NCBI GenBank assembly: GCA_027311205.1
Contig: DAICZI010000008.1
Span: forward strand, 1 to 14,184
Source of the DNA: Beijerinckiaceae bacterium
GTDB lineage: Bacteria; Pseudomonadota; Alphaproteobacteria; Rhizobiales; Beijerinckiaceae
Direction: 5' to 3'
Length of the DNA stretch: 14,184 bases
Every line of letters begins with the position of its first letter. Position 1 is the stretch's first letter. Positions 188-14,184 of the stretch are shown here, piece after piece. Both the position numbers and the translations under genes were made by a program. The notes below the pieces were generated by a model that saw only the letters and a list, made by a program, of their open reading frames with translations, ran no database searches and was not told the origin of the DNA.

Positions 188-978
188 GCGTTCTGCTCGG
201 CAAGCGTCAATTTGGAAAAGCACCGCAACGTATTGGCGCGCGTCGCGCTGGCGACATGTTCCAGTGAAACACCACGCGCCTGGGCCAAAACTTTTGCAGT
301 TTCAACAACATAACTTGGCTCGTTGGTTCTGCCGCGATGCGGCATGGGAGCCAGAAACGGCGCATCGGTTTCCACCAGCAGCCGGTCTTCGGGCACAGTG
401 CGGGCAATGGCGCGCAATTGTTCAGCGCTTTTGAAGGTCAGCACGCCGGAAAAGGATATGAACAGGCCCAACGCAACGCCGGTTTCAGCCAGGGCAGGCG
501 AGGCGGTGAAGCAATGCAAAATGGCACCAAACCGCCCCTGCCCCATCTCATCGCGCAGGATCGCCGCCATGTCATCATCGGCGTCGCGGCTGTGAATGAC
601 CAAAGGCAGGCCGGATTGGCGCGCGGCGGCAATATGGTTGCGAAACACCCGGGCGGCCTGGTCGCGCGGGCATTTGTCATAGTGATAATCGAGCCCCGCC
701 TCGCCAATGGCAACGCATTTGGGGTGCTGCGCGAGGCTCACCAGCGTTGCCGTCGCAACTTCCGGCTCATCCATGACATAATTGGGATGGGTGCCGATGG
801 TGAAGCTCACCTCGGCATGGGCTTCAGCCAAAGCCCTGTAGCGCTCATAATGGCGCACGCCGGTCGAGATGGTGATGAGGTGATCGACACCCGCCTGCCC
901 TGCCCGCGCCAGCACACCGGGCAAATCAGCGTAGAGCTCAGGGAAATCGAGGTGGCAATGGCTGTCGATCAGGCTCAC
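184..978 (-). CDS. tatD: TatD-family metal-dependent hydrolase (putative deoxyribonuclease)
   Basis: The 264-residue product matches the usual TatD/YcfH length and has the TIM-barrel metal ligands in order: H7 and H9 in DSHCHLDF, E93 in GEAGLDYHY, H129 in PLVIHSRDA, H155 in ILHCFTAS and D205 in LVETDAPFLAP, followed by the family NEP motif at 219-221. Family members are Mg2+/Mn2+-dependent hydrolases with reported 3'-5' exonuclease activity, in some cases linked to DNA repair; the role in this organism is inferred. The start is GTG at 978-976, overlapping the metG stop as GTGA. The gene's own stop overlaps the next GTG the same way. Both downstream starts sit in the same short context, GCGTGAGCCT. 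It is expected to be cytoplasmic and co-transcribed with metG. Confidence 0.93.
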   Translation of the reverse strand: MSLIDSHCHLDFPELYADLPGVLARAGQAGVDHLITISTGVRHYERYRALAEAHAEVSFTIGTHPNYVMDEPEVATATLVSLAQHPKCVAIGEAGLDYHYDKCPRDQAARVFRNHIAAARQSGLPLVIHSRDADDDMAAILRDEMGQGRFGAILHCFTASPALAETGVALGLFISFSGVLTFKSAEQLRAIARTVPEDRLLVETDAPFLAPMPHRGRTNEPSYVVETAKVLAQARGVSLEHVASATRANTLRCFSKLTLAEQNA

Positions 979-2522
979 GCCACGCTCTCCGGCTCGCTTT
1001 GCCGCGGAAACAGCGCGACGGGTGGCGGCAACGGCGTTCCCGGCGCGACGCTCACGTCATAATCAGCAAAATTGCGATGCTCGGGCGCAACGCCAAGGCC
1101 GTCGAGCAAGAGCGCCATGGTCTGCGGCATCACCGGCTGCAACAGCAGCGCCACCTGGCGCAGCACGTCTGCCGTGAGCGCCAGCACATGCGCCATGCGC
1201 GCTGGATCGCTCTTGCGCAGCAGCCACGGGGCCGCATTGGCAAAATGGCGGTTGGTCTCGCTAATCACTTTCCAGATTTCCGCAAGCATCTGGTGGGGCT
1301 GATATTGCGCCATGGCAGCGCGGCTAAGCGGCAGCAGCGCCGCTGTGGCGGCGAGCAAGGCGGCGTCGCTTTCCGACAGCGCCAGCATGGCCGGCATTTT
1401 GCCGTCACAGTTTTTGGCGATCATCGACAGCGAGCGCTGCGCCAGATTGCCGAGATCATTGGCAAGGTCAGCATTCTTGCGGGCGATGATGGCATCATCG
1501 GCATAGGAGCCGTCCTGGCCGAAAATCACCTCGCGCAGCAGAAAATAGCGCAAGGGATCAACGCCATAGCGCGCCGCCATGCTCATCGGATCAATGACAT
1601 TGCCGACCGATTTCGACATTTTCTCGCCGCGGTTGAACAAAAACCCGTGCACGACAATCTGGCGTGGCAAGGCCAGCCCCGCCGACATAAGGAAGGCTGG
1701 CCAGTAAATCGCGTGAAAGCGCGTAATGTCCTTGCCGATGACATGGGCGGCAGCGGGCCAGAAGCGGGCATGCGCGGCCTGCGGATCGGGGTAGCCGGTC
1801 GCCGTCAGATAATTGGTCAGTGCATCGACCCAGACATACATGACATGGGCCGGGTCGCCGTGCACCGGAATGCCCCAGTCAAAGGTGGTGCGGCTGACCG
1901 AGAAATCCTTCAGGCCGCGTTTGACAAAGGCCATGATTTCATTGCGATAGGGGCTCGGCGTGATGAAATCCGGATGGCTTTCATAATGCGCCAGCAGGCG
2001 TTCGCCAAAGGCCGAAAGCCGGAAGAAATAGCTCGCCTCCTCCACCCATTCGACCGGCGCGCCGTCTTTGGTGTGTTTGGCGCCTGCGGCATCGCTGAGG
2101 AGTTCAGCCTCGTCAAAAAACGCCTCGTCGCGCACCGAATACCAACCGGCATAGTTCGAGAGGTAGATGTCACCCCGCGCCGCCATGGCTTCCCAAATGG
2201 CGGTGGCCGTGGCGCGGTGGCGCGGCTCGGTGGTGCGCACGACATCATCGGCGCGCGCGTTCAGCGCTTCGCCCATGGCGGCAAATTTCCCGGCGATCAC
2301 GTCGGCGAAGGCTTGCGGCGTCATGGCGTGCGCCGCCGCCGTGCGCTGCATTTTTTGCCCGTGCTCATCCATGCCGGTCACAAACAGCACATCGCGGCCA
2401 TCCAGCCGCTGAAAGCGCGCGAAGGCGTCGGTGGCAATCCGCTCATAGGCATGGCCAAAATGCGGCTCACCGTTGGCATAAGGAATGGCCGTGGAAATCA
2501 GATAGGGGGAAAGATCGGGCAT
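975..2522 (-). CDS. metG: Methionine--tRNA ligase (methionyl-tRNA synthetase)
   Basis: The enzyme attaches methionine to tRNA-Met using ATP in the cytoplasm. The 515-residue product is a class I synthetase. It opens with YLISTAIPYANGEPHFGHAYE, whose HFGH at 21-24 is the HIGH signature; the KMSKS loop is at 301-305 in FNRGEKMSKSVGN. The connective region (about 120-160) has GWYSVRDEAFFDEAE and no cysteine zinc knuckles, and there is no C-terminal tRNA-binding EMAP-like domain. This is the short, zinc-less type common in alphaproteobacteria. The ATG at 2522-2520 is preceded by AGGA at a suitable distance. The upstream partner in this gene order is normally holB, but here 1.7 kb of mobile-element-derived DNA separates them, so metG transcription must either read through the omp gene or start within the insert. 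The stop overlaps the tatD start. Confidence 0.97.
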   Translation of the reverse strand: MPDLSPYLISTAIPYANGEPHFGHAYERIATDAFARFQRLDGRDVLFVTGMDEHGQKMQRTAAAHAMTPQAFADVIAGKFAAMGEALNARADDVVRTTEPRHRATATAIWEAMAARGDIYLSNYAGWYSVRDEAFFDEAELLSDAAGAKHTKDGAPVEWVEEASYFFRLSAFGERLLAHYESHPDFITPSPYRNEIMAFVKRGLKDFSVSRTTFDWGIPVHGDPAHVMYVWVDALTNYLTATGYPDPQAAHARFWPAAAHVIGKDITRFHAIYWPAFLMSAGLALPRQIVVHGFLFNRGEKMSKSVGNVIDPMSMAARYGVDPLRYFLLREVIFGQDGSYADDAIIARKNADLANDLGNLAQRSLSMIAKNCDGKMPAMLALSESDAALLAATAALLPLSRAAMAQYQPHQMLAEIWKVISETNRHFANAAPWLLRKSDPARMAHVLALTADVLRQVALLLQPVMPQTMALLLDGLGVAPEHRNFADYDVSVAPGTPLPPPVALFPRQSEPESVA

Positions 2523-2586
2523 GACATCCTGAGGTCTGGGAACCCCTACCCTCTAACAAAGCCGACGCCTTGCGGCAACGCCGCTT

Positions 2587-2601
2587 TTGCAACGTCCCTA
2601 A
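2587..2601. repeat. 15-bp motif resembling an IS right terminus, copy 1
   Basis: TTGCAACGTCCCTAA differs by one base from TTGCAACGTGCCTAA at 4207-4221, the right end of the miniature element by holB. A 14-bp version, TTGCAACGTCCTAA, lies at 12984-12997. Here it directly abuts the left end of the IS remnant at 2602, as though a right terminus and a left terminus shared one TAA. It may be the stub of another IS copy; chance similarity is possible because the match does not extend inward. Confidence 0.4.
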
Positions 2602-3066
2602 GAGCCTGACTTGAAATTGGCTGACCGGCCTCGCGGTCTCTGCTTCCTCAGTTGCAACAACTAGAGGAGATTGGCGATGCCCTGGAACTGGAGGCCGGGG
2701 CGCGCTGATCGGGGCGCCGACGGTGGTCGGAGCCGGCAGCCCTCGTGGTCTCGACGCGTGCAAGAAGCTCGGACAGTGGGATTATCAGGGCGATGAAGCT
2801 CGGCGCGCAGCTTTCGAGGCGAACCGCATTTCCATCGCCATCTTCAAGCGAACTGACAAAAGGTTGAAAGGATTTAGCGTGCTGCCGGCACGCTGGGTTG
2901 TCGAGCGAACGCCCGGCTGGATCAAGCGCGCGCGCCGTCAGGCAAAAGCCTTCGAGGCGACCATCGAATTCGCTCGCGTGTGGCGGCTATTGGCCTCGGC
3001 TTCCCTTCTCATGCGAAGGATGCCGAGGCTGAAAATCGGTCAGATTTGAAATTCGCGTCGGCTTCT
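2602..3066 (+). mobile_element. Decayed IS5-like insertion sequence remnant
   Basis: The left end (GAGCCTGACTTGAAATTGG, continuing to about 2638) matches 4046-4082 at 33 of 37 positions. The right end region 2996-3043 matches 4150-4197 at 41 of 48. Read inward, the two ends of this copy form an imperfect terminal inverted repeat that finishes in a shared CTGACC. A transposase C-terminal fragment ends at 3049. Trinucleotides of the form TNA flank it: TAA on the left and TTA on the right. At about 465 bp it is too short for a complete IS5 element (usually 0.8-1.3 kb), so most of the transposase gene has been lost. It lies just upstream of metG and, with the element at 4046, brackets the omp gene in the same orientation. 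Confidence 0.72.
2723..3049 (+). pseudogene. C-terminal fragment of an IS5-family DDE transposase
   Basis: The open frame ends with a segment typical of IS5-family transposases: IAIFKRTDKRLKGFSVLPAR, then WVVERTPGW, IKRARRQAK, FEATIEFARVWRLLASASLLMRR. The glutamate in WVVERT corresponds to the last acidic residue of the DDE catalytic triad. The N-terminal half with both catalytic aspartates is absent, and the codons before about 2800 do not resemble a transposase, so the protein cannot be active. The usual transposase is roughly 250-330 residues; only about 80 recognisable residues remain here. The TGA at 3047-3049 falls inside the right terminal repeat region, as in intact members. The exact start of homologous sequence is uncertain. 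Confidence 0.75.
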
Positions 3067-3178
3067 TAGCCGCGGCACACGTCGGGCACGTGGAAACAGT
3101 CACTGCCCCTAGGGCCGCACTTGGGCGAAAACCATATCATCGCGCCGACGGATGTCTGGATCAACCGGAAAGAAACGG

Positions 3179-3862
3179 TCAAAACTTGTAGCTTAGCGAT
3201 GCCAGAACCGTATTGGTGCTAGGCCGAAGCGTATTAGGCCCGCCATACACAAACTGTTTCTTCGGATAAGACGCGTAAGCATAATCAAGAGCGATGATCC
3301 AGTTATCGGTAAGCGCATAATCAATGCCAGCACCCACGGTCCAGCCGGTGTAGGTTGCACTCTTTGAAGTGGAGCCAGAGTAATGCAAGTCGTCGAGATT
3401 AGCAAAAGCAACACCACCTTTGATGTAAGGCATGAAACGATCGAACGCATAACCAAGCTTGGCGACGACATCGCCCTGGAAATTTTCCTTGACGGTGTAG
3501 GTTTCACCGCCCCCACCACCAGTGAGATGGGTGCTGTTGTTGAAGACGAACGTGCCAGCAGCTTCGAGGCCTACGACAACATTAGATGGCATCTGATAAT
3601 TGTAGCCAGCCTTGCCGCCGATGGCGAATGCGGTCGAAGACAATGTGAAATTGGACGGATAGCCTGGGATCACATCATTTGTGGCGAGAGCATTGAATCC
3701 GGCATCAGCACCGACGTAGAACCCGGTCCAGGAAAATGCCGGCGCGGAAACTGGAGCCGGAGGAGCGCCCTTGTAAACTGGACCAGGCAAATCCGCAGCG
3801 AAGGCACTCCCGACTAACAGCGAAGTCGCCATGACGGCGGCGATCAAGAATGTTTTCTGCAT
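3179..3862 (-). CDS. Outer membrane beta-barrel protein (Omp25/Omp31-like porin-family protein)
   Basis: The 227-residue product starts MQKTFLIAAVMATSLLVG and has a Sec signal peptide cleaved after SAFA (residue 22), giving the mature start ADLPGPVYKG typical of rhizobial outer membrane proteins. FSWTGFYVGADAGFN, then GGKAGYNYQMPSNVVVGLEA and alternating strands, suggest a small barrel of about eight strands. It ends LASLSYKF; the terminal phenylalanine is the usual BAM-complex recognition residue. The frame is open 28 codons further upstream, but the ATG at 3862-3860 is chosen because GGAGG lies 5 nt before it and the signal peptide begins there. The gene is visibly AT-richer than its neighbours and sits between two copies of an IS-derived sequence inside the holB-metG operon, which suggests acquisition. 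Its role is probably envelope integrity or passive transport; ligands unknown. Confidence 0.88.
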   Translation of the reverse strand: MQKTFLIAAVMATSLLVGSAFAADLPGPVYKGAPPAPVSAPAFSWTGFYVGADAGFNALATNDVIPGYPSNFTLSSTAFAIGGKAGYNYQMPSNVVVGLEAAGTFVFNNSTHLTGGGGGETYTVKENFQGDVVAKLGYAFDRFMPYIKGGVAFANLDDLHYSGSTSKSATYTGWTVGAGIDYALTDNWIIALDYAYASYPKKQFVYGGPNTLRPSTNTVLASLSYKF

Positions 3863-3917
3863 GAAACCCTCCAAAGCGCTTGCGACCAGGATCCAGGCGC
3901 GCACCCACACTGCTGCT

Positions 3918-3946
3918 TCTAAATTCCCTAACGGAAGCCGGGTCAA
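3918..3946 (-). promoter_or_regulatory. Possible promoter of the outer membrane protein gene
   Basis: On the minus strand TTGACC (3946-3941) is followed after 17 nt by TTTAGA (3923-3918), giving a good -35 and a weak -10. The expected transcript start is about 50 nt before the ATG. Transcripts from here could read on into metG because no clear terminator is visible between 3178 and 3070. This is pattern matching only. Confidence 0.3.
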
Positions 3947-4045
3947 TACAATGCACCCAACAGGTACGCGTCAGTTTGCGATTTCCAATACGATGTGGCA
4001 TTTTCGCAACATTGTTGGAAGCTTGATCCTTGCCTATCCGGGTGA

Positions 4046-4218
4046 GAGCCTGACCTGAAATTGGTTGACCAGCCTCGCGGCCCCTGATTGGCCGTCAGGG
4101 CGCGTCGACGGCGGTTGAAGTCGGCAGCCAGTCGGTCAGGAAATTGGTGTCGGCTTTCCTTCTCATCCGCAGGCTGCCGAGGCCGAAAGCCGGTCAGCAC
4201 TGAAATTTGCAACGTGCC
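4046..4218 (+). mobile_element. Miniature (internally deleted) copy of the same IS5-like element
   Basis: This 173-bp segment joins a left end (GAGCCTGACCTGAAATTGG onward, 33/37 to 2602-2638), a short internal block (CGACGGCGGTTGAAGTCGGCAGCC resembles sequence near 2716-2740) and a right end (41/48 to 2996-3043, then ACTGAAATTTGCAACGTGCC). A residue of the transposase C-terminus can still be read through FLLIRRLPRPKAG. It has no coding capacity, so it resembles a MITE-like or solo remnant. The flanks are TGA on the left and TAA on the right. The right edge coincides with the holB stop codon. It forms the second bracket around the omp gene. Confidence 0.65.
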
Positions 4219-4221
4219 TAA
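4207..4221. repeat. 15-bp IS right-terminus motif, copy 2
   Basis: TTGCAACGTGCCTAA forms the right terminus of the miniature element plus the flanking TAA. It is nearly identical to 2587-2601 and similar to 12984-12997. Confidence 0.45.
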
Positions 4222-5282
4222 GGCGAGGTCGCCGCCACCAGATCCCGGAACATCCCCATCAGCAGCGCACGCCGATCCAGATTGAGCGCCTCGCTCTGGC
4301 CAGCAGCTTGCGCCATGCTGGATTTGGCGCTTGCCAGGGCATTGAGCCTTGCGAGCGAAAGCCCGCCTGCGACCCCTTCCCGCAGCTTTGTGCCAAGACA
4401 GGCCTCCAACCCCGCAAGCATCCGCGCGAAAGCGCGCTCCTGCCCGGCGCGCGCCACCAGATCGGCGAGCGCGTGAATGTCGCGCCAGTCCGGCTGCGGC
4501 AAGCTTGCCAGAAGGCGGGCAAGCTGCGCGTCGAGGCTGCGATTGGCTTCATCGAGCCGCTCCAGCCCCTCGCGCACCGAGCCCTGAGCCCCAGCCGCAG
4601 CGGCGGCAAGGGTCGCCCCGGCGATGTCGGGCCGCAGGCCGTGCAGCACTTGCGCCAAAGCGGGCGCATCCAGCGGCGCAAGGTCGATGCGCTGGCAGCG
4701 CGAACGCAAGGTCGCCAGCAATCGGCCGGGCCGATGCGCAATGATCAAAAACAGCGCGTTGGCGGGCGGCTCCTCGATGAGTTTCAACAAGGCGTTGGCC
4801 CCGCTGCGGTTCAGATCATCGGCGGCATCGACAATTGCAATTCGCCAGCGGGTCTCGGCCGGCGCGAGGTGGAATTTGTCGATGATCCGGCGCACGTCAT
4901 CAATGCGGATTTCGGTATAATGCTTTTTGGTTTTGTCATTCCATTCGCGGCGCAGCACACTGACGTCGCCGTGGCTGCCATGGGCGACCCGCAAGGCAAC
5001 CGGATGGTCAGGTGGCAGGCCCAGATCGCGCTTCCCACGGGCTTCCGGGCTGTCGACATCGGGATGCGCCAGCAGGAATTTTGCCAGTCGCCAGGCCAAA
5101 GTTGCCTTGCCAATGCCCTCCTGCCCGCAGATCAGCAAGGCATGCGGCAGACGCCCTGCCCGCCAGGCGTTGAGCAGGGCCGATTCGGCTGCGCCATGGC
5201 CGACAAGGCTCTGCGTCGCCCGTGGCGCGGGGCAAGTACCGGCACGGTCGCTGTCGGGTGGGTTGCTATCAGCGGCGCTCAT
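4218..5282 (-). CDS. holB: DNA polymerase III subunit delta' (clamp loader)
   Basis: The 354-residue AAA+ protein is the delta' subunit of the clamp loader that places the beta sliding clamp on primed DNA. Visible motifs are GQEGIGKAT at 53-61 (Walker A form), RIAIVDAADDLN at 147-158 (Walker B region), NALLKLIEEPP at 163-173, and the SRC motif at 194-196 in TLRSRCQRIDLAPLD. The C-terminus (NLDRRALLMGMFRDLVAATSP) resembles the collar-domain end of other alphaproteobacterial homologues. The frame is open 17 codons upstream, but the ATG at 5282-5280 is preferred: it overlaps the tmk stop as ATGA and has GGAG about 6 nt before it. The TAG stop at 4220-4218 lies on the junction with the inserted element and uses its terminal base, so the natural C-terminus may have been slightly shortened. 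Confidence 0.94.
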   Translation of the reverse strand: MSAADSNPPDSDRAGTCPAPRATQSLVGHGAAESALLNAWRAGRLPHALLICGQEGIGKATLAWRLAKFLLAHPDVDSPEARGKRDLGLPPDHPVALRVAHGSHGDVSVLRREWNDKTKKHYTEIRIDDVRRIIDKFHLAPAETRWRIAIVDAADDLNRSGANALLKLIEEPPANALFLIIAHRPGRLLATLRSRCQRIDLAPLDAPALAQVLHGLRPDIAGATLAAAAAGAQGSVREGLERLDEANRSLDAQLARLLASLPQPDWRDIHALADLVARAGQERAFARMLAGLEACLGTKLREGVAGGLSLARLNALASAKSSMAQAAGQSEALNLDRRALLMGMFRDLVAATSP

Positions 5283-6034
5283 GAAGGCTCCAGTATGACT
5301 TTGTCCACGGTGCCTTGCTGTATCCTTCGCCATTTTTCCAGGCGCAACCGCGAAAACAGCCGCTGGGCAATCAAAGTCTCGATCTGCCGCGAAACCGCCG
5401 CCGCATCGCCGGAGGCATCAATCAGGACGCAGCGATCCGTCGCTTTGGCGGCAACTTCGCGAAAGCCATCCCGAATGCGCTGGTAGCGGGCAATATCGCC
5501 AGCCTCGAACCGGTCGGCCTGCGCCGTGCCGCGCCGCAGCGCCGCGCGCTTCATGGCAATCACGGGATCCACATCCAGCACCAGCGTCAAGTTCGGGCGC
5601 ATGGTGCCGAGCGCCACGGATTCCAGCAAATCGAGCAAGTGCGGATCAAGCCCATCGACCAGCCCCTGATAAACTCGCGTTGAATCAATAAAACGATCGC
5701 ACACCACCCACGCACCCGCTGCCAGCGCGGGCAGGATTTTTTCATCAAGATGGATAATGCGGGCAGCGGCAAACAGCACCGCTTCAGCCTGCGGCCCGAG
5801 ATGTCGGAACTGGCCCGCAAGCAGTGACTGGCGCAGCGCTTCCGCCGCAGGCGTGCCGCCCGGTTCGCGGGTCATCACCACCTCAATGCCGACGGCTTCC
5901 AGCATGTGCTGAATGGCGGCCATCTGGGTGGATTTACCTGCGCCTTCGCCGCCTTCCAGCGTGATCAGACGCCCAGGGCGGCGACGGCGCGGCGCCGTCG
6001 GCTCGGCTGCCGCTGTGAGATTTTCGGCACTCAC
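5279..6034 (-). CDS. tmk: Thymidylate kinase (dTMP kinase)
   Basis: This enzyme phosphorylates dTMP to dTDP with ATP, a required step in dTTP supply. The P-loop GGEGAGKST is at 28-36 in RLITLEGGEGAGKST; TREPGG is at 55-60; the DR motif with its conserved context is CDRFIDSTRVYQG at 112-124; the lid region RRGTAQADRFE is at about 167-177. The 251 residues exceed the usual 205-225. There is an Arg-rich N-terminal extension of about 20 residues, and a basic C-terminal tail (FSRLRLEKWRR onward) runs into the holB start. The GTG at 6034-6032 is chosen because it overlaps the preceding carboxypeptidase stop as GTGA; no better start lies between it and the P-loop. It is followed by holB with an ATGA overlap, so dNTP supply and replisome assembly are genetically coupled. 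Confidence 0.95.
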   Translation of the reverse strand: MSAENLTAAAEPTAPRRRRPGRLITLEGGEGAGKSTQMAAIQHMLEAVGIEVVMTREPGGTPAAEALRQSLLAGQFRHLGPQAEAVLFAAARIIHLDEKILPALAAGAWVVCDRFIDSTRVYQGLVDGLDPHLLDLLESVALGTMRPNLTLVLDVDPVIAMKRAALRRGTAQADRFEAGDIARYQRIRDGFREVAAKATDRCVLIDASGDAAAVSRQIETLIAQRLFSRLRLEKWRRIQQGTVDKVILEPS

Positions 6035-7254
6035 AGCCGGAAAATATATTTGCGAATGAGATCGGTGGCGAGTTCTTGGGCCGCATCCAGGGCCCGGCGC
6101 TGCAAACTGCCCGTTTTCACGCTGTCAGTGGTCTCCAGCGGAAAGCTCGCCAACACCTTGCCATCGCGCAAAACCGCCAGACTGGCGACATTCGCGCCTT
6201 TTTTCACAGGGGCCATAAGGGGCCCCTGATAGCGGATTTCGCCAGTGATCGGATCATCGCTGCCGCGCGGCACCAGCAGCTTGATCGGCGTTGCCGACGC
6301 CAAATTCACAGTGCCGGTTGCGCCGCCATAGACCTGCGCCGAACCGACAATGCTGCCCGCCTTGAACAATTGCCGCGATTGAAAGGATCGAAAGCCCCAT
6401 TCCAGCAATTTGCGCGCTTCATCACCCCGCGCCGCCGCAGTCTTCAGACCATTGACCACCACAATCAGCCTTTCGCCGTTCTGCACTGCCGAACCGATCA
6501 GGCCAAATCCAGACCCCTTGGTGAAACCGGTTTTGACGCCGTCAGCGCCAATGTTCATGAACAGCAGTGGGTTACGGTTGCGCTGGGTGATTTTGTTCCA
6601 GGTGAACTGCTTTTCGGCGCAATAGGCATAGAGATCAGGATAGGTCTGGATGATGTGGTCGGTCAGCAGCGCCATTTCGCGCGCCGTCACTTTATGATCC
6701 GGTTCCGGATCACCCCAGGCATTGTCAAAATGCGACTTGACCATCCCGAGCGCCTTGGCGCGCTTGTTCATCAGGGTCGCAAATGCTTCTTCTGATCCGG
6801 AAATGCCTTCGGCCAGCGCAATGGCGGCATCATTGCCGGATTGGACGAGCAGGCCCTGCAATAAATCCGAAATAGCGACCTGACTATGCAGGTTGGCAAA
6901 CATGGTCGAGCCGCCTGAGCGTGCGCCGCCCTCGCGCCAGGCCCGCTCGGATATGGTGAATTTATCTGTGAGCTGCAGACGATGTTGCGCCAGTTCCTCA
7001 AACACCACTTCAGCCGTCATCAGCTTGGTGGTGGAGGCGGGATCCATCATCGTATCCGCCTGTTTGGCATAGAGAACAGTGCGGGTGTCAGCATCCATCA
7101 AAAAAGCGTAGGGGGCAGCCGTTTGAAACGCTTGCGCTCGGGCGACACCCGACCATGCTGCTGTCAGCGGGAGGGCAAGCCCGGCCGCGACCAGATATGT
7201 CACGACCGAAGCAGGGCGAGCTTCCCTCTTCGTGCCCGTTGCCAACCGCGCCAT
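6031..7254 (-). CDS. dacC: D-alanyl-D-alanine carboxypeptidase (low-molecular-mass PBP, peptidase S11)
   Basis: The 407-residue protein removes the terminal D-Ala from peptidoglycan stem pentapeptides in the periplasm. The three active-site motifs are present: S74-x-x-K77 in DPASTTKLMT, S139-G-N141 in VQSGNDAA, and K241-T-G243 in DGVKTGFTKGSGFG. The N-terminus has a basic start and a hydrophobic stretch at about 17-35 ending VARAQA, consistent with a signal peptide cleaved near residue 40-42. Residues from about 290 on form the beta-rich C-terminal domain of PBP5/6-like enzymes, and the basic C-terminal helix (QELATDLIRKYIFRL) may serve as the amphipathic membrane anchor. It begins 162 nt after the rlpA stop and leads the coupled block, overlapping tmk by GTGA. 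The paralogue letter (dacA/C/D/F) cannot be resolved from the sequence. Confidence 0.95.
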   Translation of the reverse strand: MARLATGTKREARPASVVTYLVAAGLALPLTAAWSGVARAQAFQTAAPYAFLMDADTRTVLYAKQADTMMDPASTTKLMTAEVVFEELAQHRLQLTDKFTISERAWREGGARSGGSTMFANLHSQVAISDLLQGLLVQSGNDAAIALAEGISGSEEAFATLMNKRAKALGMVKSHFDNAWGDPEPDHKVTAREMALLTDHIIQTYPDLYAYCAEKQFTWNKITQRNRNPLLFMNIGADGVKTGFTKGSGFGLIGSAVQNGERLIVVVNGLKTAAARGDEARKLLEWGFRSFQSRQLFKAGSIVGSAQVYGGATGTVNLASATPIKLLVPRGSDDPITGEIRYQGPLMAPVKKGANVASLAVLRDGKVLASFPLETTDSVKTGSLQRRALDAAQELATDLIRKYIFRL

Positions 7255-7285
7255 TTGCCTGCTGCCTCACCATGAACCGGCAGTC

Positions 7286-7314
7286 ATTTTGCCCTGTCGA
7301 AGCGCAAAAATCAA
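7286..7314 (-). promoter_or_regulatory. Possible promoter for the dac-tmk-holB block
   Basis: On the minus strand TTGATT (7314-7309), a 17-nt spacer and CAAAAT (7291-7286) give 4/6 matches to each consensus hexamer. The predicted start is about 25 nt before the carboxypeptidase ATG. The position fits the 162-nt gap after rlpA, where no terminator hairpin is evident, so the block may also receive read-through from rlpA. Unverified. Confidence 0.33.
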
Positions 7315-7416
7315 CGTCGTCAGAACAGCTGGTTCAACGCCGAGGGCGATGAAAATGCGCGCACTCGCAATGGCGGCAAATCAGACGAAATCAAGCCGTT
7401 GGGCGGCCATGATAGC

Positions 7417-8349
7417 TTACTGGTTCAGACCCGCTGTCAATTTCATCGGCCCGGATTTTACAAAATGGTCGCTGAGGCCAATGGGCGAACTGTCATAGAA
7501 GCTGACATCCTCGACATGCGGCTTGCGCGCCGAATGCACCGCAACACGCGCGTCCGGGTGATGCTGCTGCACGGGTGCGGAAATCTGATAGGGCCGGATC
7601 GGCGGCAGGGGCACGTGCGTCAAAGCCAGGCCGTTCGCAGTGCTCGTTCTGGCTGCGCCCAGATCAGCCATCGCCATCGTCTCGCTCTGATGGCGCGCTG
7701 GATTGGAGGCGAGCATGGTTCCAGCCGGAAGCATCGAGCCGCCCAAAGTGGCGGGTTCCCCGTCGGTGCGCAAGCTGGCCATCAGCATTTTGGTGTCGTG
7801 ACCGCCCAAAGGCGCAGGCGCGACATATTGCACCCTGACATGCCCCGTTCCGGCATTGATGAAGCCCAGCAGAACTGCGACATTCTTAGAGACATCCATG
7901 ATGCGGCCCTTGGCATAGGGGCCGCGATCATTGACGCGCACGATGATCGACCTTTTGTTGGCGAGATTCGTGACGCGGGCATAGCTGGGCAAAGGCATGG
8001 TCTTGTTGGCGGCGGTGATGGCGTTCATATTGAACACTTCGCCGTTGGCAGTGCGCCGACCATGAAAGTCCGCGCCATACCAGGACGCCATGCCCACCGC
8101 ATCATATTTTTTGGTTGAGGGATAGTAGGTGTGGCCAGCGACGGTATAGGGCCGTCCGACAAAATAACGCCCGCCGCCCGTGTGGATCTTCTGGCCAGCC
8201 AGCGCCACACGCGGCGAGGCCACAACGCCATATTTGGGATCGACCTGCGGGCGTGACGAGAGGGCCAGATTTTGGTGTGGCGCCTGGGCACAACCTGCCA
8301 TCAAGGCGGCCACGCCGCCGAGCATGGAGAACGTGACCGTGGAGCGCAT
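7417..8349 (-). CDS. rlpA: RlpA-like septal ring lipoprotein (double-psi beta-barrel)
   Basis: RlpA proteins are outer-membrane lipoproteins that act on peptidoglycan, as lytic transglycosylases for naked glycans in Pseudomonas, often at the division site. From the ATG at 8349-8347 the product has 310 residues. A signal peptide MRSTVTFSMLGGVAALMAGC places the lipid-carrying cysteine at residue 20. The double-psi beta-barrel spans about 85-177, with GMASWYGADFHGRRTANGE, PLPSYARVTNL and VRVNDRGPYAKGRIMDVSK all recognisable. There is no obvious C-terminal SPOR domain; the last 130 residues are low-complexity and Pro/His rich. The frame is open to an ATG at 8442, which has a better Shine-Dalgarno match (AGAGGG) than the internal ATG, but the lipobox argues for 8349. 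Its neighbour is another peptidoglycan enzyme, a logical pairing. Confidence 0.9.
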   Translation of the reverse strand: MRSTVTFSMLGGVAALMAGCAQAPHQNLALSSRPQVDPKYGVVASPRVALAGQKIHTGGGRYFVGRPYTVAGHTYYPSTKKYDAVGMASWYGADFHGRRTANGEVFNMNAITAANKTMPLPSYARVTNLANKRSIIVRVNDRGPYAKGRIMDVSKNVAVLLGFINAGTGHVRVQYVAPAPLGGHDTKMLMASLRTDGEPATLGGSMLPAGTMLASNPARHQSETMAMADLGAARTSTANGLALTHVPLPPIRPYQISAPVQQHHPDARVAVHSARKPHVEDVSFYDSSPIGLSDHFVKSGPMKLTAGLNQ

Positions 8350-8799
8350 GAGCCGCGAGGAGAAGGGTGGAACAGCGCCTTTTTCGGCACAAACCCCGAC
8401 ATCTCCAGCCTTGAGCTGGAAGCTCTCATGCAAGCAAGGCATTCACTCATCCCTCTAAAAAAACTCAAACACGACCAAGGCCCGCAACCACAGGCCTCCA
8501 ACCGACACACAAGAAGACGTCCCTACCCCGCTGTAATCCCAAAACGAGCGCAAATTCCCAAAAAAAGAATCAGGAAAGCGTCGCAATTCGGCAACATGGA
8601 TAACGCAATATGGCCTTTTTGTCCCGCATCCTTTGGTCGCATGGTGGGCAACGGCGTGAGCCAGCCACCAACTAAGGGCAAAATGTCCCCAAATTATTAA
8701 GCTATCGTGAACGAAATGCGCGGGCCGTAGCCAGGATCTCCGCGCGGCCAGAGCAGAACCGTTGCAATCAACGGCGGCTCATGGCAGAAGCGTCACGCC
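8350..8799. other. Intergenic region between rlpA and tRNA-Ser
   Basis: No supported gene is seen in these 450 bases apart from a possible upstream extension of rlpA to 8442. The stretch holds the presumed promoter of rlpA (minus) and of the tRNA (plus), but no strong -35/-10 pair stands out. A perfect 6-bp inverted repeat CCGTTG-CAAT-CAACGG lies at 8759-8774, ending 25 nt before the tRNA. An AT-rich patch at 8690-8712 includes TTAA-N7-TGAA. Confidence 0.6.
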
Positions 8800-8889
8800 G
8801 GAGGGGTGGTCGAGTGGTTTAAGGCAGCGGTCTTGAAAACCGCCGTGGGTGCAAGCCCACCGTGAGTTCGAATCTCACCCCCTCCGCCA
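8800..8889 (+). tRNA. tRNA-Ser (anticodon UGA)
   Basis: The gene folds as a complete class II tRNA of 90 nt. The acceptor arm GGAGGGG (8800-8806) pairs with CCCCTCC, followed by G and an encoded CCA ending at 8889. The D arm contains GAGTGGTTTAAGGC. The anticodon stem GCGGT/ACCGC encloses the loop CTTGAAA, with anticodon TGA at 8834-8836. A long variable arm (GTGGGTGCAAGCCCAC) gives the serine type. The T arm is GTGAG-TTCGAAT-CTCAC. It reads UCA codons (and, by wobble, UCG). It is divergent from rlpA. tRNA 3' ends are common integration sites, and the sequence downstream lacks recognisable genes for 740 nt. Confidence 0.97.
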
Positions 8890-9625
8890 TATCAGAACAG
8901 AACTGCGAACGCCGCAAGTGGCCGATTTTTCGCCCGAAATGGCGGCGAGCGTTATGAGCAAATCGCGCGTCGTGAGCCTTGAGCGCTTGGCTAGCCCTCG
9001 CCGGGCCAATGGCAGTCGGTCAAGGCCGCGAGTCGCGAAGCGGTGGCGCGTCCCGCGACAGCCTTGAGGGACTGGCGTTGATCCGGCCTCTTCGCGCCAA
9101 GCGGTCTTGCTCTCGTCTCGGCAAATATGGACGGATGGCGCTTGGATCGTTGATGGAATTGATGTGGTGGGCGAAACGTATGGCAAGGGTGACTCTGAGA
9201 CGACTCAAAAACTCAAAACACTCCAACCACATGCACCCAGCCGACGGCGGTGCTTTTACCATGCCGTCCAAATCGAGCGCCTAACGTCTGCTCCACGCTA
9301 TGATATTTCCCGATTCCCAAACAGTGCACGGCACGGCAGTCCGCATGCGGTTCATGCGCGCGCCGATTGCTCATCGCTGCATTGGTCATCGACAGCCGAA
9401 CCGTTGTGCGCCTACTGCAAACAGTGCGTTCGACCGGCGACACGGAGGACAATTGGAGGGCATTCTGTGCGTCGCCTTTCGTCGGACTTTCATTTAATAA
9501 CATACGCAAGTCGGACAATTGAGTAAATTTGATCCCCCAAGCTTGAGCGCTCCTTCTTCGAAGTCTATCACCTTCTTCGGGAGGCCGTGGCAACGTAGCA
9601 TCGGCATGGTGACAGGAGTGGAAAG
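8890..9625. other. Gene-poor region between tRNA-Ser and the 830-residue ORF
   Basis: I find no convincing gene here. Short frames on both strands (for example 9107-9526 plus and 9213-9593 minus) overlap each other, lack ribosome binding sites and show no family motifs. Base composition drops in GC near 9485-9530 (TTTCATTTAATAACATACG, then AATTGAGTAAATTTGATC), where the promoter for the downstream gene is likely but no consensus pair is clear. A short direct repeat CCTTCTTCG occurs at about 9551 and 9571. No copy of the tRNA 3' end is visible as an attachment-site repeat, and there is no integrase gene in the window. Confidence 0.55.
9614..9618 (+). promoter_or_regulatory. Ribosome binding site that fixes a TTG start
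   Basis: AGGAG lies 7 nt before TTG at 9626. An in-frame TAG at 9596-9598 rules out a longer upstream start, and the first in-frame ATG is 47 codons later, inside conserved duplicated sequence. TTG is therefore the best start. Confidence 0.7.
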
Positions 9626-12118
9626 TTGACGCAACAACTTCTCGGTTGGTGGCTCTTCGATACGGACCAGGCCCAGATCATTCATGCCACTACAGGGCAG
9701 ATCCTGCGCTCCACCGGTCATCCGAAATCCCGCCCCGGCCTCACGGAGTCTGGGAACCGCATCTGGATGTCATTCGAATATCGTGATCGGGATATTCGCC
9801 TCCCGCTTGTCATCGAGTGGCGCAACCTTCCCTCACCTGTCGGCGGCCGCCCCATTGTGTGGCGTGTCGACTACATCCGTTCGGCGATGCTTTGGCGCGC
9901 CGAGGCGAATTCTCCGCTGGCATTTCCTCCCTACGGCGTATGGCGGCGTGTGGATGATTTTCTCACTAATGCGCTTGCCTGCTGGCCCACGCACGCGCAG
10001 ACCGGTGCCAAGCCGGGACGGATCGCCTTCAACGGCGGATGGCTAAACGGGAACTGGACTAGCGCGTTCTACCGATCCGTTTGGGCGTCCACGCCGCTTG
10101 CTGGGTCGACCGACGCATTCCAGAGCGCCGCCATGGAACCGCTCACCGCGAACCCGCCAACGCCTTGGCGACTGTTGCCGCCGGTTCTCCCCGAAAGGCT
10201 GCCTTGGAGAGCCGGCGAGACAGACCTATGGTCCGAGGCTCGGCCGGCCATAGAAGGAAGGTCTTATCTGGGCACCTACGACGGCAGCCGCCTGATTGTG
10301 GCGCTGGCAAAGGCGGCGAGCATGCGTTTAAACCTGAAAGGACTTTCCCGTCTCTTCTATGCCGATGAGACCATCCTCAGTGACATCTCCCTTGCAGGCA
10401 TATGGGATCACCGGTGCAAGGAGCTGCCAATTTGGGCGGTGGGCCTTGACATCGGACGGCGTGACTCGCCCCTCGGTCTTTTCGATCGTACAAAGATGGA
10501 AAAGATTTTGCCGCTTGTCCCAAACACCGAGTTGCCAGGAGGCAATGTCAGCCGCGCGCAACACACGCCATACGCCGCCCAGCGACGGCTCGCCCATGCC
10601 TGCGTGGATGCATGGCTTTCGCAGTCCGATACATCCTGGTCATACGATGAAACGTCAGAACGGCTCGAAGCAGGGTCGATGCCGGCAGCGATGGTTTCCA
10701 TCTCCTGGCCGCTTGCCGGCTGCGTCATGCCCTCCAAGCTCGAAGCGTTGGCGTCGCTCGACCCACAGATCGGCGGCAAGCCCAACCCGCTTAGATTCAT
10801 GTTCGATGAAGAGAATGACGGTATCCAACGCGGATCTTCCTCGTTCATCACCATGGGCTTCTGGCGGTTCGACCCGACCACGCGCAGCCTCGTCAATGTT
10901 CTCTCGGGTCAGCGCCTCCGTTTGCGGGAACGCATCAACCAGGCGGAGACGGGCGACCAGCCGATCGTGAGAAGCGGCAGGATCTGGTGGTTCCAATATG
11001 AAGACGGCGAGCTTTCCTATCCGCTCGTCGTATTGTCCCAAGCCGCTGCGGCGAGGGGCAATCTACAGTTCACCTGGGTGGTGGATCATGAGCAGTCGAA
11101 GGCTCTCTGGCAGCAAGAGGGTGGGCGTGACCTGCCGCCCTTCGGCCTTTGGCAGCGGGTAAACGAATACGCCACCGACGCGTTGTTGTGCTGGCCGGAG
11201 TGCGCGGAGACCGGGCCGCAGCCATACAGGATCATCAGCGCCGCCGGATGGTTCAATGGGAGTTGGTCAACAGCGATCCGACGCCAGCGCGATCGTGGTC
11301 TGGATCACTCATTCTTCGAACGACAGGCACCGGAGGAACCGTTCCTGCAAGATGTTCGGGCTCCTGCGCAGTTTTGGCACTTCGTTGATGCATCGCGGGC
11401 CGCGCCCATTGCTTCGCTCGCTCATGTACGGCAACTCGAGCCGCATCGGCTCTACCTGCCGGCCGACGCGGCGCTTACCGGCTTTGAGATGGAGATGCCT
11501 AACCTCCGCCGCGACGATGGCCGTGCCGTCATGTTTCCGGCTGGTCTGCGTAGCGGGCTGCATCGGGGCGAGGATTATGATCCCGGGGCGTACTTTCTTT
11601 ATGCTGATGAAGACATATTCTTTTGCGTGCGCGGAAGCGAGTTCGGCGGCTGGGGGGCGCTGCCCTCAAAATGGACGTTTAAGCTTGGTGAACCATTCCG
11701 GATTGGCTTGCGCCATCTCGAACGGTTCGACGCCTCCCAGGCCGACGGTGTCCCCGCTGCCTATTTTTGGCGAAAGATTGCGCCGGAAAGCCCACCAATC
11801 AGATTCCTGCCGGAAGCAAGCGGGGGGATCCCCTCACCCGCCGTCGCCCAGATGGTCACTGCCGCGCTCATTGATGGCTGGCTTGCCTGGACGGGCACGT
11901 CCAAGCGGTTGCTTGACGATCCCGAGCATCTGCAGAAACTCGGCAAGAAGGCCGAGGTGCCGCCGTTGGAGCGGAGCGGTATTGACCTTGGGCGGAAGTC
12001 CAGGGTTAGGGTCGAAGGCGGTTATGTCGGCGGTCGCTTCAACACCAGTGCGGCCACGACCGCCTGGCTGGAGGCGATCCCATCGACCCCAGGAAACGGA
12101 TATGGCGCTGATTCCTAG
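9626..12118 (+). CDS. Unrecognised 830-residue tryptophan-rich protein with two tandem homologous halves
   Basis: I do not recognise a known family. The protein has no signal peptide and no membrane segment, so it is probably cytoplasmic. It contains 35 tryptophans (about 4 percent), and its main feature is internal duplication. Residues 6-28 (GWWLFDT...TGQILR) match 410-432 (GFWRFDP...SGQRLR); 44-65 match 451-472 (RIW...PLV); 77-150 match 482-553 through W-VD, LW, PP(Y/F)G-W-RV, AL-CWP, TG--P, GW-NG-W. Later, 243-336 (FYADETI...VDAWLSQSDTS) matches 657-759 (LYADEDI...IDGWLAWTGTS). Each unit is about 410 residues. The conserved Trp, Cys and Gly pattern suggests a fold built around aromatic residues, possibly ligand binding; no catalytic motif is evident. 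It starts at TTG behind AGGAG. It stands alone between a tRNA and a convergent oxygenase gene, so the context gives no function. A lineage-restricted accessory protein is plausible. Confidence 0.85.
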   Translation: MTQQLLGWWLFDTDQAQIIHATTGQILRSTGHPKSRPGLTESGNRIWMSFEYRDRDIRLPLVIEWRNLPSPVGGRPIVWRVDYIRSAMLWRAEANSPLAFPPYGVWRRVDDFLTNALACWPTHAQTGAKPGRIAFNGGWLNGNWTSAFYRSVWASTPLAGSTDAFQSAAMEPLTANPPTPWRLLPPVLPERLPWRAGETDLWSEARPAIEGRSYLGTYDGSRLIVALAKAASMRLNLKGLSRLFYADETILSDISLAGIWDHRCKELPIWAVGLDIGRRDSPLGLFDRTKMEKILPLVPNTELPGGNVSRAQHTPYAAQRRLAHACVDAWLSQSDTSWSYDETSERLEAGSMPAAMVSISWPLAGCVMPSKLEALASLDPQIGGKPNPLRFMFDEENDGIQRGSSSFITMGFWRFDPTTRSLVNVLSGQRLRLRERINQAETGDQPIVRSGRIWWFQYEDGELSYPLVVLSQAAAARGNLQFTWVVDHEQSKALWQQEGGRDLPPFGLWQRVNEYATDALLCWPECAETGPQPYRIISAAGWFNGSWSTAIRRQRDRGLDHSFFERQAPEEPFLQDVRAPAQFWHFVDASRAAPIASLAHVRQLEPHRLYLPADAALTGFEMEMPNLRRDDGRAVMFPAGLRSGLHRGEDYDPGAYFLYADEDIFFCVRGSEFGGWGALPSKWTFKLGEPFRIGLRHLERFDASQADGVPAAYFWRKIAPESPPIRFLPEASGGIPSPAVAQMVTAALIDGWLAWTGTSKRLLDDPEHLQKLGKKAEVPPLERSGIDLGRKSRVRVEGGYVGGRFNTSAATTAWLEAIPSTPGNGYGADS
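9641..10633 (+). repeat. First unit of the protein-level tandem duplication
   Basis: This covers residues 6-336 of the 830-residue protein. Its landmarks are the N-terminal WLFD block, the VWRVDY/PPYGVWRRV/ACWP/GGWLNGNW block and the FYADETI to VDAWLSQSDTS block. It aligns in the same order with the second unit. The repeat is visible at protein level, not as a nucleotide repeat, so the duplication is old. Confidence 0.8.
10853..11899 (+). repeat. Second unit of the protein-level tandem duplication
   Basis: This covers residues 410-758. Its landmarks are GFWRFDP, RIWWFQYED, TWVVDHEQ, LPPFGLWQRVN, LLCWPECAETG, GWFNGSW, LYADEDIFF and IDGWLAWTGTS, in the same order as the first unit. In the best block (77-150 against 482-553) a little over a third of positions are identical by eye. 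Confidence 0.8.
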
Positions 12119-12209
12119 GATTGTTCGGCCCAGCACCAGATCGTCGGCAGTCATGCATCCTGCCGTTCCGGCGTACTTTGGGCTCCGGTTTCAAATGGCC
12201 ACAGCGTAG
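12102..12209 (+). CDS. Possible 35-residue ORF overlapping the end of the 830-residue gene
   Basis: An ATG at 12102 is preceded by AGGAAACGG and overlaps the last 17 nt of the upstream gene in another frame. It reads MALIPRIVRPSTRSSAVMHP and ends at a TAG at 12207. It could be a small coupled gene, the truncated beginning of a former downstream partner gene, or meaningless. I recognise no family. Confidence 0.25.
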   Translation: MALIPRIVRPSTRSSAVMHPAVPAYFGLRFQMATA

Positions 12210-12245
12210 ACATAGTGCTCATCATCGTCGGTCGTGGCCCGCCAA

Positions 12246-12282
12246 GCAAAATCATACGCGCGTGTCAGGCACGCGGTTTTGC
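12246..12282. terminator. Bidirectional rho-independent terminator between convergent genes
   Basis: CGCGTG (12259-12264), the loop TCAGG and CACGCG (12270-12275) form a 6-bp GC stem, followed by GTTTTGC. GCAAAA at 12246-12251 is the complement of TTTTGC at 12277-12282, so the structure carries an A tract on one side and a T tract on the other. It lies 128 nt after the 830-residue gene and 20 nt after the stop of the convergent oxygenase gene, as expected for a shared terminator. Confidence 0.55.
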
Positions 12283-12301
12283 CGACGCCGTCAGACCAGC
12301 C

Positions 12302-12964
12302 TCACCCCGCCACCGGCGTTTCCGGAAAGCTCAATTGTTCGCGGGCGCGCCATTCGCTGGTCACGTAGTTGAGGATCACCGATTTGCGCACGCCCTTGAT
12401 GGGGCGCTTTTCGAAGCCGTGCCAGGTGTTGGAGCCGGGCACAAACACCATGGCGCTGTTGGGGATGAAGGGTGAGCGGCCAAAATGGGTCTCGTGGTCG
12501 CGGTAGATGTCAGTGCCCAGTTGATCGTGGCCCTCAAGCGTCGAGAGATAAATCAGGCAGGTGAATTTCTTGACGCCGAGATCGGTGTGCGGCTCCAGCC
12601 AGAAGCCATCAATATCCTGCGCATATTCCAGCCGCAGATAGGTGCCGCCGAGCGCCACGTCAAAAGCCTGTTCGAGCGTGGCGATGGTGTCACGGCTTTG
12701 CAGCGCCTGCGCCGTTGCGGCCATGACGGGATATTTGGCCATGGCCTCAGCGTCGAAATACGAACGGGTGTCATTGTGCAATTCGCGCTTGCCCGAGATG
12801 CCGCCGAGCGAGGGAGCCTTGAACGGCAATTCATTGAGCGCCTGCGCCACATCGGCAGGAAGGAGTTCGCTCATCAAAAAATGCCGATAGGGCTCATCAA
12901 ACACGCTGGCATTGCGGGCGCTGGCGCAAAAGGTTGCGGCTATGGCGTTGGCAGTGTAGGGCAT
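12302..12964 (-). CDS. 2-oxoglutarate/Fe(II)-dependent oxygenase family protein
   Basis: The 220-residue product has the double-stranded beta-helix signature of non-haem iron dioxygenases. The HxD pair is H126/D128 in FWLEPHTDLGVKKFTCLIYLS, the distal histidine is H182 in NTWHGFEKR, and R193 in GVRKSVILNYV is the likely 2-oxoglutarate carboxylate ligand. Such enzymes couple 2-oxoglutarate decarboxylation to hydroxylation of a substrate, which cannot be named here. The ATG at 12964-12962 is chosen over an upstream in-frame ATG at 13033: GGAG lies about 7 nt before it and the homologous region begins shortly after. The gene has no signal peptide, so it is probably cytoplasmic. It is divergent from the glycosyltransferase gene and convergent with the 830-residue gene. 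A role in modifying a sugar, lipid or protein made with the neighbour is only a guess. Confidence 0.88.
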   Translation of the reverse strand: MPYTANAIAATFCASARNASVFDEPYRHFLMSELLPADVAQALNELPFKAPSLGGISGKRELHNDTRSYFDAEAMAKYPVMAATAQALQSRDTIATLEQAFDVALGGTYLRLEYAQDIDGFWLEPHTDLGVKKFTCLIYLSTLEGHDQLGTDIYRDHETHFGRSPFIPNSAMVFVPGSNTWHGFEKRPIKGVRKSVILNYVTSEWRAREQLSFPETPVAG

Positions 12965-12983
12965 GGCGGCTCCAATGGGGCAA

Positions 12984-12997
12984 TTGCAACGTCCTAA
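12984..12997. repeat. 14-bp motif similar to the IS right terminus, copy 3
   Basis: TTGCAACGTCCTAA matches the 15-bp sequences at 2587 and 4207 with a one-base gap. It lies about 20 nt upstream of the oxygenase start codon, in the 124-nt divergent intergenic region (12965-13088) that must hold the promoters of both neighbouring genes. It may be an IS footprint, a shared regulatory motif or coincidence. Confidence 0.3.
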
Positions 12998-13088
12998 CCG
13001 CCCGTTAAGCCTACTGCAAGGCGTTTCGTTCATAAGTGCGCCGCGTTGGGCGACCGAACGGGTGCCTTTTTGATTTCAGGGATTACTG

Positions 13089-14184
13089 ATGACGATGAAT
13101 GCCCCAGCTTTGGCTGCGACAGACCAAAAGGCTAATTTCAAGGCGAATTTTCTGAACGCGCTGAAGAATCTCGACGACATCGTCACCGCCCGCCCCTGGC
13201 TGGTGCTGGTGGCCATGGTGCCGCTCTGGACGCTTTACGCCATTGTTTCAAATGGTGCCTCTGACATCGCCACGGATACGGTTGAGGCCTATAGCTGGGG
13301 TCGGCAGATGATGTGGGGCTATTACAAGCATCCACCATTCTGGTCCTGGGTTGCCCATGGCTGGTTTGTCATTTTCCCGGTCGCCACATGGAGCGCCTAT
13401 CTGCTGTCGACCGTCAATGTGGTGGCGGGGCTTTATTTTGTGCGCCGCATCGCGGCCTATTTCCTGCCCGACAGAGCGTCGCAATGGTCAGCGACGCTCG
13501 TATTGGCGCTGATGCCGGTCTATACGTTCTTGACCATGATCTTCAACGCCAACACCATCCAGCTCTCGGTCTGGCCGGCGGCGGCGTGGGCGTTTCTGGC
13601 CATGATGGAAAAGCTTGAGCCCCGGCGCGCAGCGCTGGCGGGCCTGTTGATGGCCTTAACCCTGCTTTCGAAATACAATGCCCTGTTGTTTCTTGCCTGC
13701 CTGTTTGCCGCCTCGATCGTCCATCCCAATGCCCGGAAATTCTGGCGCTCAAGCCTGCCGTTTTATGCAGCGCTTGGCTTTTTGCCGCTCACATTGATGC
13801 ATCTGTGGTGGCTGATCCAGAATAATTTCATGCCGTTTCATTATTTCCACAACGAGGAATTGTATCCTTTCTCGCGCTCGATCCCGAGCGGCATTGCCTT
13901 CATCATCGCCATGGTGCTCTACACCCTGCCTGCCCTGCTGGCGCTGGTGGTGGCGGGCCGCACCTTGCGCGTCTCCTGGCCCAAACTGGCCATGATGCCG
14001 GTGCTGGCGATCCTGACCTTTGGCCCGACGGCGGAAAGTGCTCTTGCCTGCGCGGCGTTGCAAACCAAATGCTCGGGGCTTTGGGGGATGCAGAACCTGT
14101 TCACGGTGCCGATTTTCGTCATTGCGCTGCTGCCAGCCTTTGTCGGCGCGGTGGCCTTGCGGCGGATCTGGCGCATCAATGCAG
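13089..14184 (+). CDS. GT39/PMT-type integral membrane glycosyltransferase, 3' end beyond the window
   Basis: 365 codons are visible and the frame remains open at the right edge. The protein begins MTMNAPALAATDQKA, with the first membrane segment at about 36-54 (WLVLVAMVPLWTLYAIV), then the family signature D63-T-V-E66-AYSWGRQ and GYYKHPPFWSW (78-88). D63 or E66 in this first extracytoplasmic loop is the likely catalytic residue of a GT-C fold enzyme. Several further hydrophobic helices follow (for example 90-112, 135-152, 180-212, 226-240). Relatives transfer sugars from polyprenyl-phosphate donors to lipids or proteins at the periplasmic face of the inner membrane; ArnT is the best-known example, but the acceptor here is unknown. 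The ATG at 13089 has AGGG 7 nt upstream; the ATG two codons later is an alternative. It is divergent from the 2OG oxygenase. Confidence 0.88.
   Translation, partial: MTMNAPALAATDQKANFKANFLNALKNLDDIVTARPWLVLVAMVPLWTLYAIVSNGASDIATDTVEAYSWGRQMMWGYYKHPPFWSWVAHGWFVIFPVATWSAYLLSTVNVVAGLYFVRRIAAYFLPDRASQWSATLVLALMPVYTFLTMIFNANTIQLSVWPAAAWAFLAMMEKLEPRRAALAGLLMALTLLSKYNALLFLACLFAASIVHPNARKFWRSSLPFYAALGFLPLTLMHLWWLIQNNFMPFHYFHNEELYPFSRSIPSGIAFIIAMVLYTLPALLALVVAGRTLRVSWPKLAMMPVLAILTFGPTAESALACAALQTKCSGLWGMQNLFTVPIFVIALLPAFVGAVALRRIWRINA

Follow-up and report, generated by a model that had tools for sequence, protein, structure and literature searches.

An 830-residue protein of two homologous units, each apparently duplicated within, in a variable tRNA-Ser slot of a Beijerinckiaceae bacterium

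Results

A solitary gene next to a tRNA-Ser

We analysed a 14,184-nt stretch of a Beijerinckiaceae bacterium (GenBank assembly GCA_027311205.1, contig DAICZI010000008.1, positions 1 to 14,184 of the forward strand; hereinafter designated the window). As the first-pass annotation of this DNA stated, the window holds one 830-residue open reading frame at 9626-12118 on the plus strand. It lies downstream of a tRNA gene, with the following features.

8800..8889, plus strand: tRNA-Ser (TGA), left edge of a variable slot (tRNA and Rfam scans; comparison with sister genome G001)
8890..12295, no strand: variable slot (no nucleotide match in G001)
9614..9618, plus strand: Shine-Dalgarno-like AGGAG, 7 nt before the TTG (read from the sequence)
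9626..12118 (stop included), plus strand: two-unit gene, TTG start, 830 residues in the apparent order A-B-A'-B' (open reading frame list; half-versus-half comparison)

The protein is soluble-looking by its sequence, with no apparent signal or membrane stretch (maximum 19-residue Kyte-Doolittle mean of 1.21). A secondary structure drawn from Chou-Fasman propensities is too crude for use. A simple scan returns 6 terminator-like sites versus 2.8 expected and no sigma-70-like promoter for the gene versus 0.9 expected.

The missing promoter, together with the absence of the family gene from the other three congeneric genomes, would suit a chance or decaying open frame that is no functional gene. 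Against that reading stand the Shine-Dalgarno sequence and the codon-position GC of the frame (0.63, 0.52 and 0.69), which is genome-like and similar to that of five neighbours. Full-length homologues with 32-78% identity, located on unrelated contigs, preserve both the motifs and the start, the start residue being common to most of them (MAQQLLGWW vs MTQQLLGWW). We reject a chance or decaying frame because of these conserved homologues and consider it barely credible.

Two homologous units along the chain

The chain was split at the column used for the module comparison below, giving units of 397 and 433 residues.

9626..10816, plus strand: unit 1 (N half, residues 1-397)
10817..12115, plus strand: unit 2 (C half, residues 398-830)

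As judged by BLASTP and profile comparison alike, the 830-residue chain is composed of two homologous units. Residues 1-405 match residues 406-830 in BLASTP with 94 bits (E 2e-25, 35% identity over 153 residues), and the half-versus-half Smith-Waterman score of 253 far exceeds those of 200 shuffles (mean 39.9, sd 6.1, maximum 76). Profiles built from 21 two-unit proteins align the whole halves over 336 columns with probability 100 and E 2.8e-46. Past residue ~150 of either half, homology persists in the profile comparison (probability 96.9 and E 1.6e-10 for residues 161-396 against 561-830), where FYADETI lies over LYADEDI. The tandem copies proposed in the first-pass annotation are thus borne out, the motifs that it quoted are present in both halves, and the profile-profile score on which it had staked the claim is significant. 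Its further statement that the likeness spans almost the whole of each half holds at the profile level, but in pairwise alignment the two halves resemble each other only in their first ~150 residues.

Each unit appears to contain two related modules

We defined module A as the part of a unit from GWW-FD to NG-W and module B as the rest of the unit.

9641..10078, plus strand: module A of unit 1 (residues 6-151), with GWW-FD, FEYRD, VDY, WRRVDD, CWP and GGWLNGNW (BLASTP to unit 2)
10112..10813, plus strand: module B of unit 1 (~residues 163-396), with FYADETI and the helix-like RRLAHACVDAWLS (profile alignment to unit 2)
10853..11287, plus strand: module A' of unit 2 (residues 410-554; BLASTP between halves)
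11348..12115, plus strand: module B' of unit 2 (residues 575-830), with LYADEDI, ALIDGWLAWTG and EGGYVGGRFN (profile alignment to module A)

Modules A and B were compared over 54 units, of which the program used 52, with a resulting score of 57.15 (probability 95.9, E 6.5e-9). None of 100 column shuffles of B scores as high (mean 9.9, sd 1.7, maximum 16.7), and the reversed profile reaches 15.0. The matching elements are F-Y-D (FQYED with FLYADED), W-RV---DAL-CWP with RV--ALIDGWLAW, and GGW-NG-W with EGGYVGGRF. The relationship is seen within single-unit proteins (12 rows; probability 88.6, score 43.3, maximum of 50 shuffles 15.3) and within C halves (21 rows; probability 70.4, score 37.1, shuffle maximum 20.5), and is marginal within N halves (21 rows; probability 4.4, score 22.3, shuffle maximum 21.2). 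Across the chain, a profile of the first 160 residues matches the last 270 with probability 61 and E 8e-5, while module B of unit 1 (residues 161-396) aligns with module A of the C half (residues 400-560) over 26 columns with a probability of only 6.2.

The chain therefore appears, from these alignments, to be ordered A-B-A'-B', each unit comprising two homologous modules, and we conclude at the same level of comparison that module B of unit 1 is the most eroded of the four. What looks like a second, inner level of duplication within each unit is new here. The pseudo-dimeric architecture suggested in the first-pass annotation is strongly supported but incomplete, each unit being itself an apparent degenerate duplication, so that there are four modules.

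The conserved residues allow for an enzyme in which the Asp and Arg of VDY/VDH and WRRVDD would be catalytic and the second unit would be a degenerate or regulatory copy. Polar residues are invariant in both halves (D82/D487 and R108/R511, numbered as in the homologue alignment), and these positions are kept in most single-unit proteins. Across 22 units, however, the positions that vary least are mostly Trp and Gly, which look structural, and the Pfam, NCBIfam and PDB searches gave no relative, so we regard a catalytic role as improbable.

A catalogued family with single-unit relatives

A protein search with the window protein returned 22 proteins and an alignment-based search 24. One of the 22, the repetitive 922-residue P0022, is spurious, matching over 7% of the query, and was left out of all later alignments. 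The precomputed Pfam family PF27616 is assigned to 18 of the 22 proteins and to 21 of the 24; the four without it in the first search are three short proteins with no assignment and P0022, which carries other assignments. PF27616 is also assigned to the single-unit P0028, and is precomputed for P0001, the representative of the cluster that holds the window protein. P0001 is listed as 100% identical to the window protein, yet four of its residues around positions 210-228 are not those of the window translation, a mismatch that maps to window 10250-10330.

We found no papers naming PF27616, and a literature search on related descriptions returned nothing relevant; the family is apparently catalogued but unstudied. 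The first-pass annotation could not place the protein in a known family, which agrees with the lack of any credible match in Pfam, NCBIfam, PADLOC, PHROGs and the PDB but not with the precomputed assignment of its homologues to PF27616. Both halves of the window protein and nine other units were scanned against the PADLOC 2.0 anti-phage systems, with no credible model match, and profiles A5 and A7 match no PDB sequence (E up to 5 and 10).

Several low-scoring matches were set aside. Csx19 of type III-D CRISPR matched one of 11 units at E 0.028 (12.2 bits, profile positions 3-56 of 181) and was rejected on account of this E value in a single unit and the lack of a PDB match; a Csx19 structure is presumably among the PDB sequences scanned with A5 and A7. 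A PHROGs tail terminator (E 0.0045, one of 11 units) was taken as chance, and the remaining matches were two in NCBIfam (E 0.24 and 0.54, one of 11 units each) and antibody heavy chains in the PDB (E ~0.5).

The single-unit homologues that the first-pass annotation proposed to look for do exist, including one adjacent gene pair. When one-unit sequences served as queries, 10 proteins were returned, of which 8 had not appeared before; the sources include Kiloniella sp., Kiloniella antarctica and Methyloraptor flagellatus. P0029 (Kiloniella sp.), P0031 (Kiloniella antarctica) and P0030 (Methyloraptor flagellatus) resemble the window protein in having an A-B unit, but are 350-425 residues long with one unit rather than two, and their annotation is "hypothetical" or "uncharacterized"; P0030 has diverged strongly, with 18% identity to P0026. 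A scan of genome contigs added three loci. L011, from a Reyranellaceae MAG, encodes a two-unit protein; L012, from a Pseudomonadota MAG, encodes a one-unit protein; and L013, from a Rhodospirillales MAG, has two adjacent one-unit genes. The adjacent genes share 41% identity, the second ending near a contig end, and the genome of L013 (G1167) carries a third, partial one-unit copy at the end of another contig; the divergence of the L013 copies is on a 27-41% scale. The coordinates in G1167 are L013:10010-12479 for the pair and L054:8569-9396 for the partial copy, all three copies being diverged. P0027 and P0028 are probably another neighbouring pair, with the same longest-contig figure (52,916). 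A genome-contig scan with a single protein returned 12 pattern stretches and no relatives, a search of phage records with the single-unit P0029 no match, and a scan of viral contigs with profile A3 37 stretches and no relatives.

Adjacent, diverging copies and the third partial copy in G1167 would fit an immunity-type, antitoxin-like protein acting against a polymorphic or contact-delivered toxin, with tandem copies as immunity cassettes and the two-unit form as a fused pair. Other families include solitary "orphan" immunity genes, a precedent for a gene that stands alone. The protein has no Pfam match to a known immunity family, and at 830 residues it is longer than would be expected of an immunity protein. 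Nor was a toxin-like neighbour recognised: a Pfam scan of 10 neighbour-region proteins gave no toxin domain, and the other loci were read by eye. We consider an immunity function unlikely.

The history of the units was examined in a tree of 44 units, from which 10 near-duplicate rows and P0030 were left out; several rows are long-branched and the root of the drawing is arbitrary. All 16 N halves fall on one side of a branch (99/92), and the one-unit proteins lie outside them. The 16 C halves need three label changes, and their grouping as a single clade is not rejected (AU p 0.277). As a reading of sequence relationships, the tree is consistent with one old duplication or fusion that gave rise to all two-unit proteins, the one-unit proteins being separate lineages.

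A rare family with ordinary neighbours

The family gene occupies one place in its own genome. As lower bounds from a loose first look in each search, in overlapping samples that include the window genome, genomes with a match number 2 among 100 relatives, 3 among 397 sampled from the order, 4 among 385 from the class and 2 among 398 from the phylum; likewise as lower bounds, matches occur in 2 of 17 genomes in the family of G706 and 3 of 23 in that of G777. Divergent two-unit proteins are encoded on two Rhizobium plasmids among 72,556 plasmid records (L042:2874-5093 and L043:10019-12178). These proteins, WP_012555015.1 (739 residues) and WP_237352269.1 (719 residues), are annotated as hypothetical and share the two-unit organization of the window protein; unlike it they are plasmid-borne and near Tad pilus genes, and they are only 26-33% identical to it. 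The family gene adjoins the Tad pilus locus on pRLG202 and lies ~4.7 kb from it on pRspN324d, with arsenic genes between. The family is rare, patchy and accessory, scattered among alpha-proteobacteria.

We compared the open reading frames flanking 13 loci (up to 8 kb on each side, shorter at contig ends). Of 20 cross-locus neighbour matches, three are between the two Rhizobium plasmids and 17, at 24-35% identity, involve generic-looking families, which by eye are chiefly dehydrogenase-, regulator- and kinase-like; the window takes part in none. No neighbour recurs in the 13 loci outside the two related plasmids, and hence there is no evident partner gene. The neighbours at other loci are housekeeping, flagellar or Tad-pilus-looking genes, and a further 10 proteins encoded near family members had no PADLOC match at E 1e-3.

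Such ordinary neighbours in most loci, and the Tad pilus genes beside or near two of them, would suit a protein whose physiological role is to bind a ligand or partner (one of the envelope, a pilus or a sugar, for example), often lost and gained and without a role in conflict. Many Trp residues are conserved in the protein, and conserved Trp residues in number are typical of binding surfaces. The same reading is weakened by the lack of an apparent signal or membrane stretch, by the absence of a common neighbour beyond the two plasmids, and by the missing gene in the three congeneric genomes. We hold a physiological binding role to be possible but doubtful.

The tRNA-Ser site as a variable slot

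The slot lies between an RlpA-tRNA-Ser segment and a 2OG-Fe(II)-oxygenase-like gene (12302-13033, minus strand) that is 69-79% conserved in the three same-genus genomes; the Pfam match of the latter is sub-threshold (15.7 bits vs a cut-off of 27). An Rfam scan reports the tRNA alone. In G001, homology to the window stops at the end of tRNA-Ser and resumes at window 12296, and the intervening 1,043 nt encode a 278-residue NOV_C protein. This protein matches PADLOC PDC-S36 with E 2.6e-130 over positions 1-279 of 280, and PD-T4-1 and TmtA more weakly. PDC stands for phage defence candidate (PMC11514479). We found no papers naming PDC-S36, which is itself only a candidate defence gene. The G001 gene (L038:2934-3770) has sparse counterparts (5 of 100 relatives). 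It resembles the 830-residue gene in holding the matching tRNA-Ser-adjacent slot, but no sequence relation between the two was found: PDC-S36 has NOV_C, and the family units have no PDC-S36 match.

The tRNA-Ser site behaves as a variable slot, and it may be a small variable locus in the genus. The slots of G002 and G003 are interrupted by contig ends or rearranged, so that one of the three same-genus genomes is informative. Six direct-repeat families and one inverted pair were detected, none touching 8800-8889, and no repeat of the tRNA was seen within the slot. The earlier remark that the gene stands alone near a tRNA gene is correct, the tRNA being tRNA-Ser (TGA).

Discussion

Our tentative first choice is that the 830-residue protein is a stand-alone conflict protein of the anti-phage type that acts by binding. 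Conflict genes are often rare, solitary, located in variable slots and able to multiply in tandem. We rank this reading first because the gene is rare, solitary and slot-borne and has relatives in tandem copies, and because the alternative occupant of its slot is a candidate defence gene. A physiological binding protein comes second as a somewhat doubtful option, an immunity protein third and unlikely, and an enzyme fourth and improbable. Our confidence in a conflict role is held well below even by the ordinary neighbours elsewhere (none of 10 matched by PADLOC). The slot argument comes from one relative, and the lack of a credible PADLOC match of the units and of matches in phage records and viral contigs also counts against a conflict role.

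The architecture is seen at the level of sequence, and the fold, the ligand and the role proposed here are inferred. An A-B unit would have arisen by duplication of one module, and the fusion of two such units would later have produced a covalent pseudo-dimer of pseudo-dimers. Partner binding may fall to a Trp/Arg/Asp-rich surface on the A modules, which are well conserved, and the faster-evolving B modules may tune that binding. As a one-gene anti-phage or anti-mobile-element system, the protein would recognise a symmetric or repeated component of the invader and block it by binding. Binding or sequestration is preferred over an enzyme because the protein-level evidence contains no catalytic motif. 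A bolder version would make this a new family of one-gene systems against phages or mobile elements, with four homologous modules repeating an undescribed fold in a fused pseudo-dimer of pseudo-dimers and with the one-unit relatives acting as separate, possibly oligomeric subunits; it seems to us quite unlikely.

The protein offers a compact case of apparent nested duplication, from module to unit to two-unit protein, in which the one-unit state survives in other bacteria. If the conflict role is true, this would be a stand-alone defence gene missing from defence-gene libraries, and variable tRNA-side slots could point to defence genes.

Two further frames lie upstream in the window. A 536-residue frame at 999-2609 on the plus strand is antisense to a methionyl-tRNA-synthetase-like open reading frame; such frames are usual in GC-rich DNA, and this one is probably no gene. 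A short open reading frame at 2723-3049 on the plus strand, in a region of falling GC, looks by eye like a C-terminal remnant of an IS5-type transposase.
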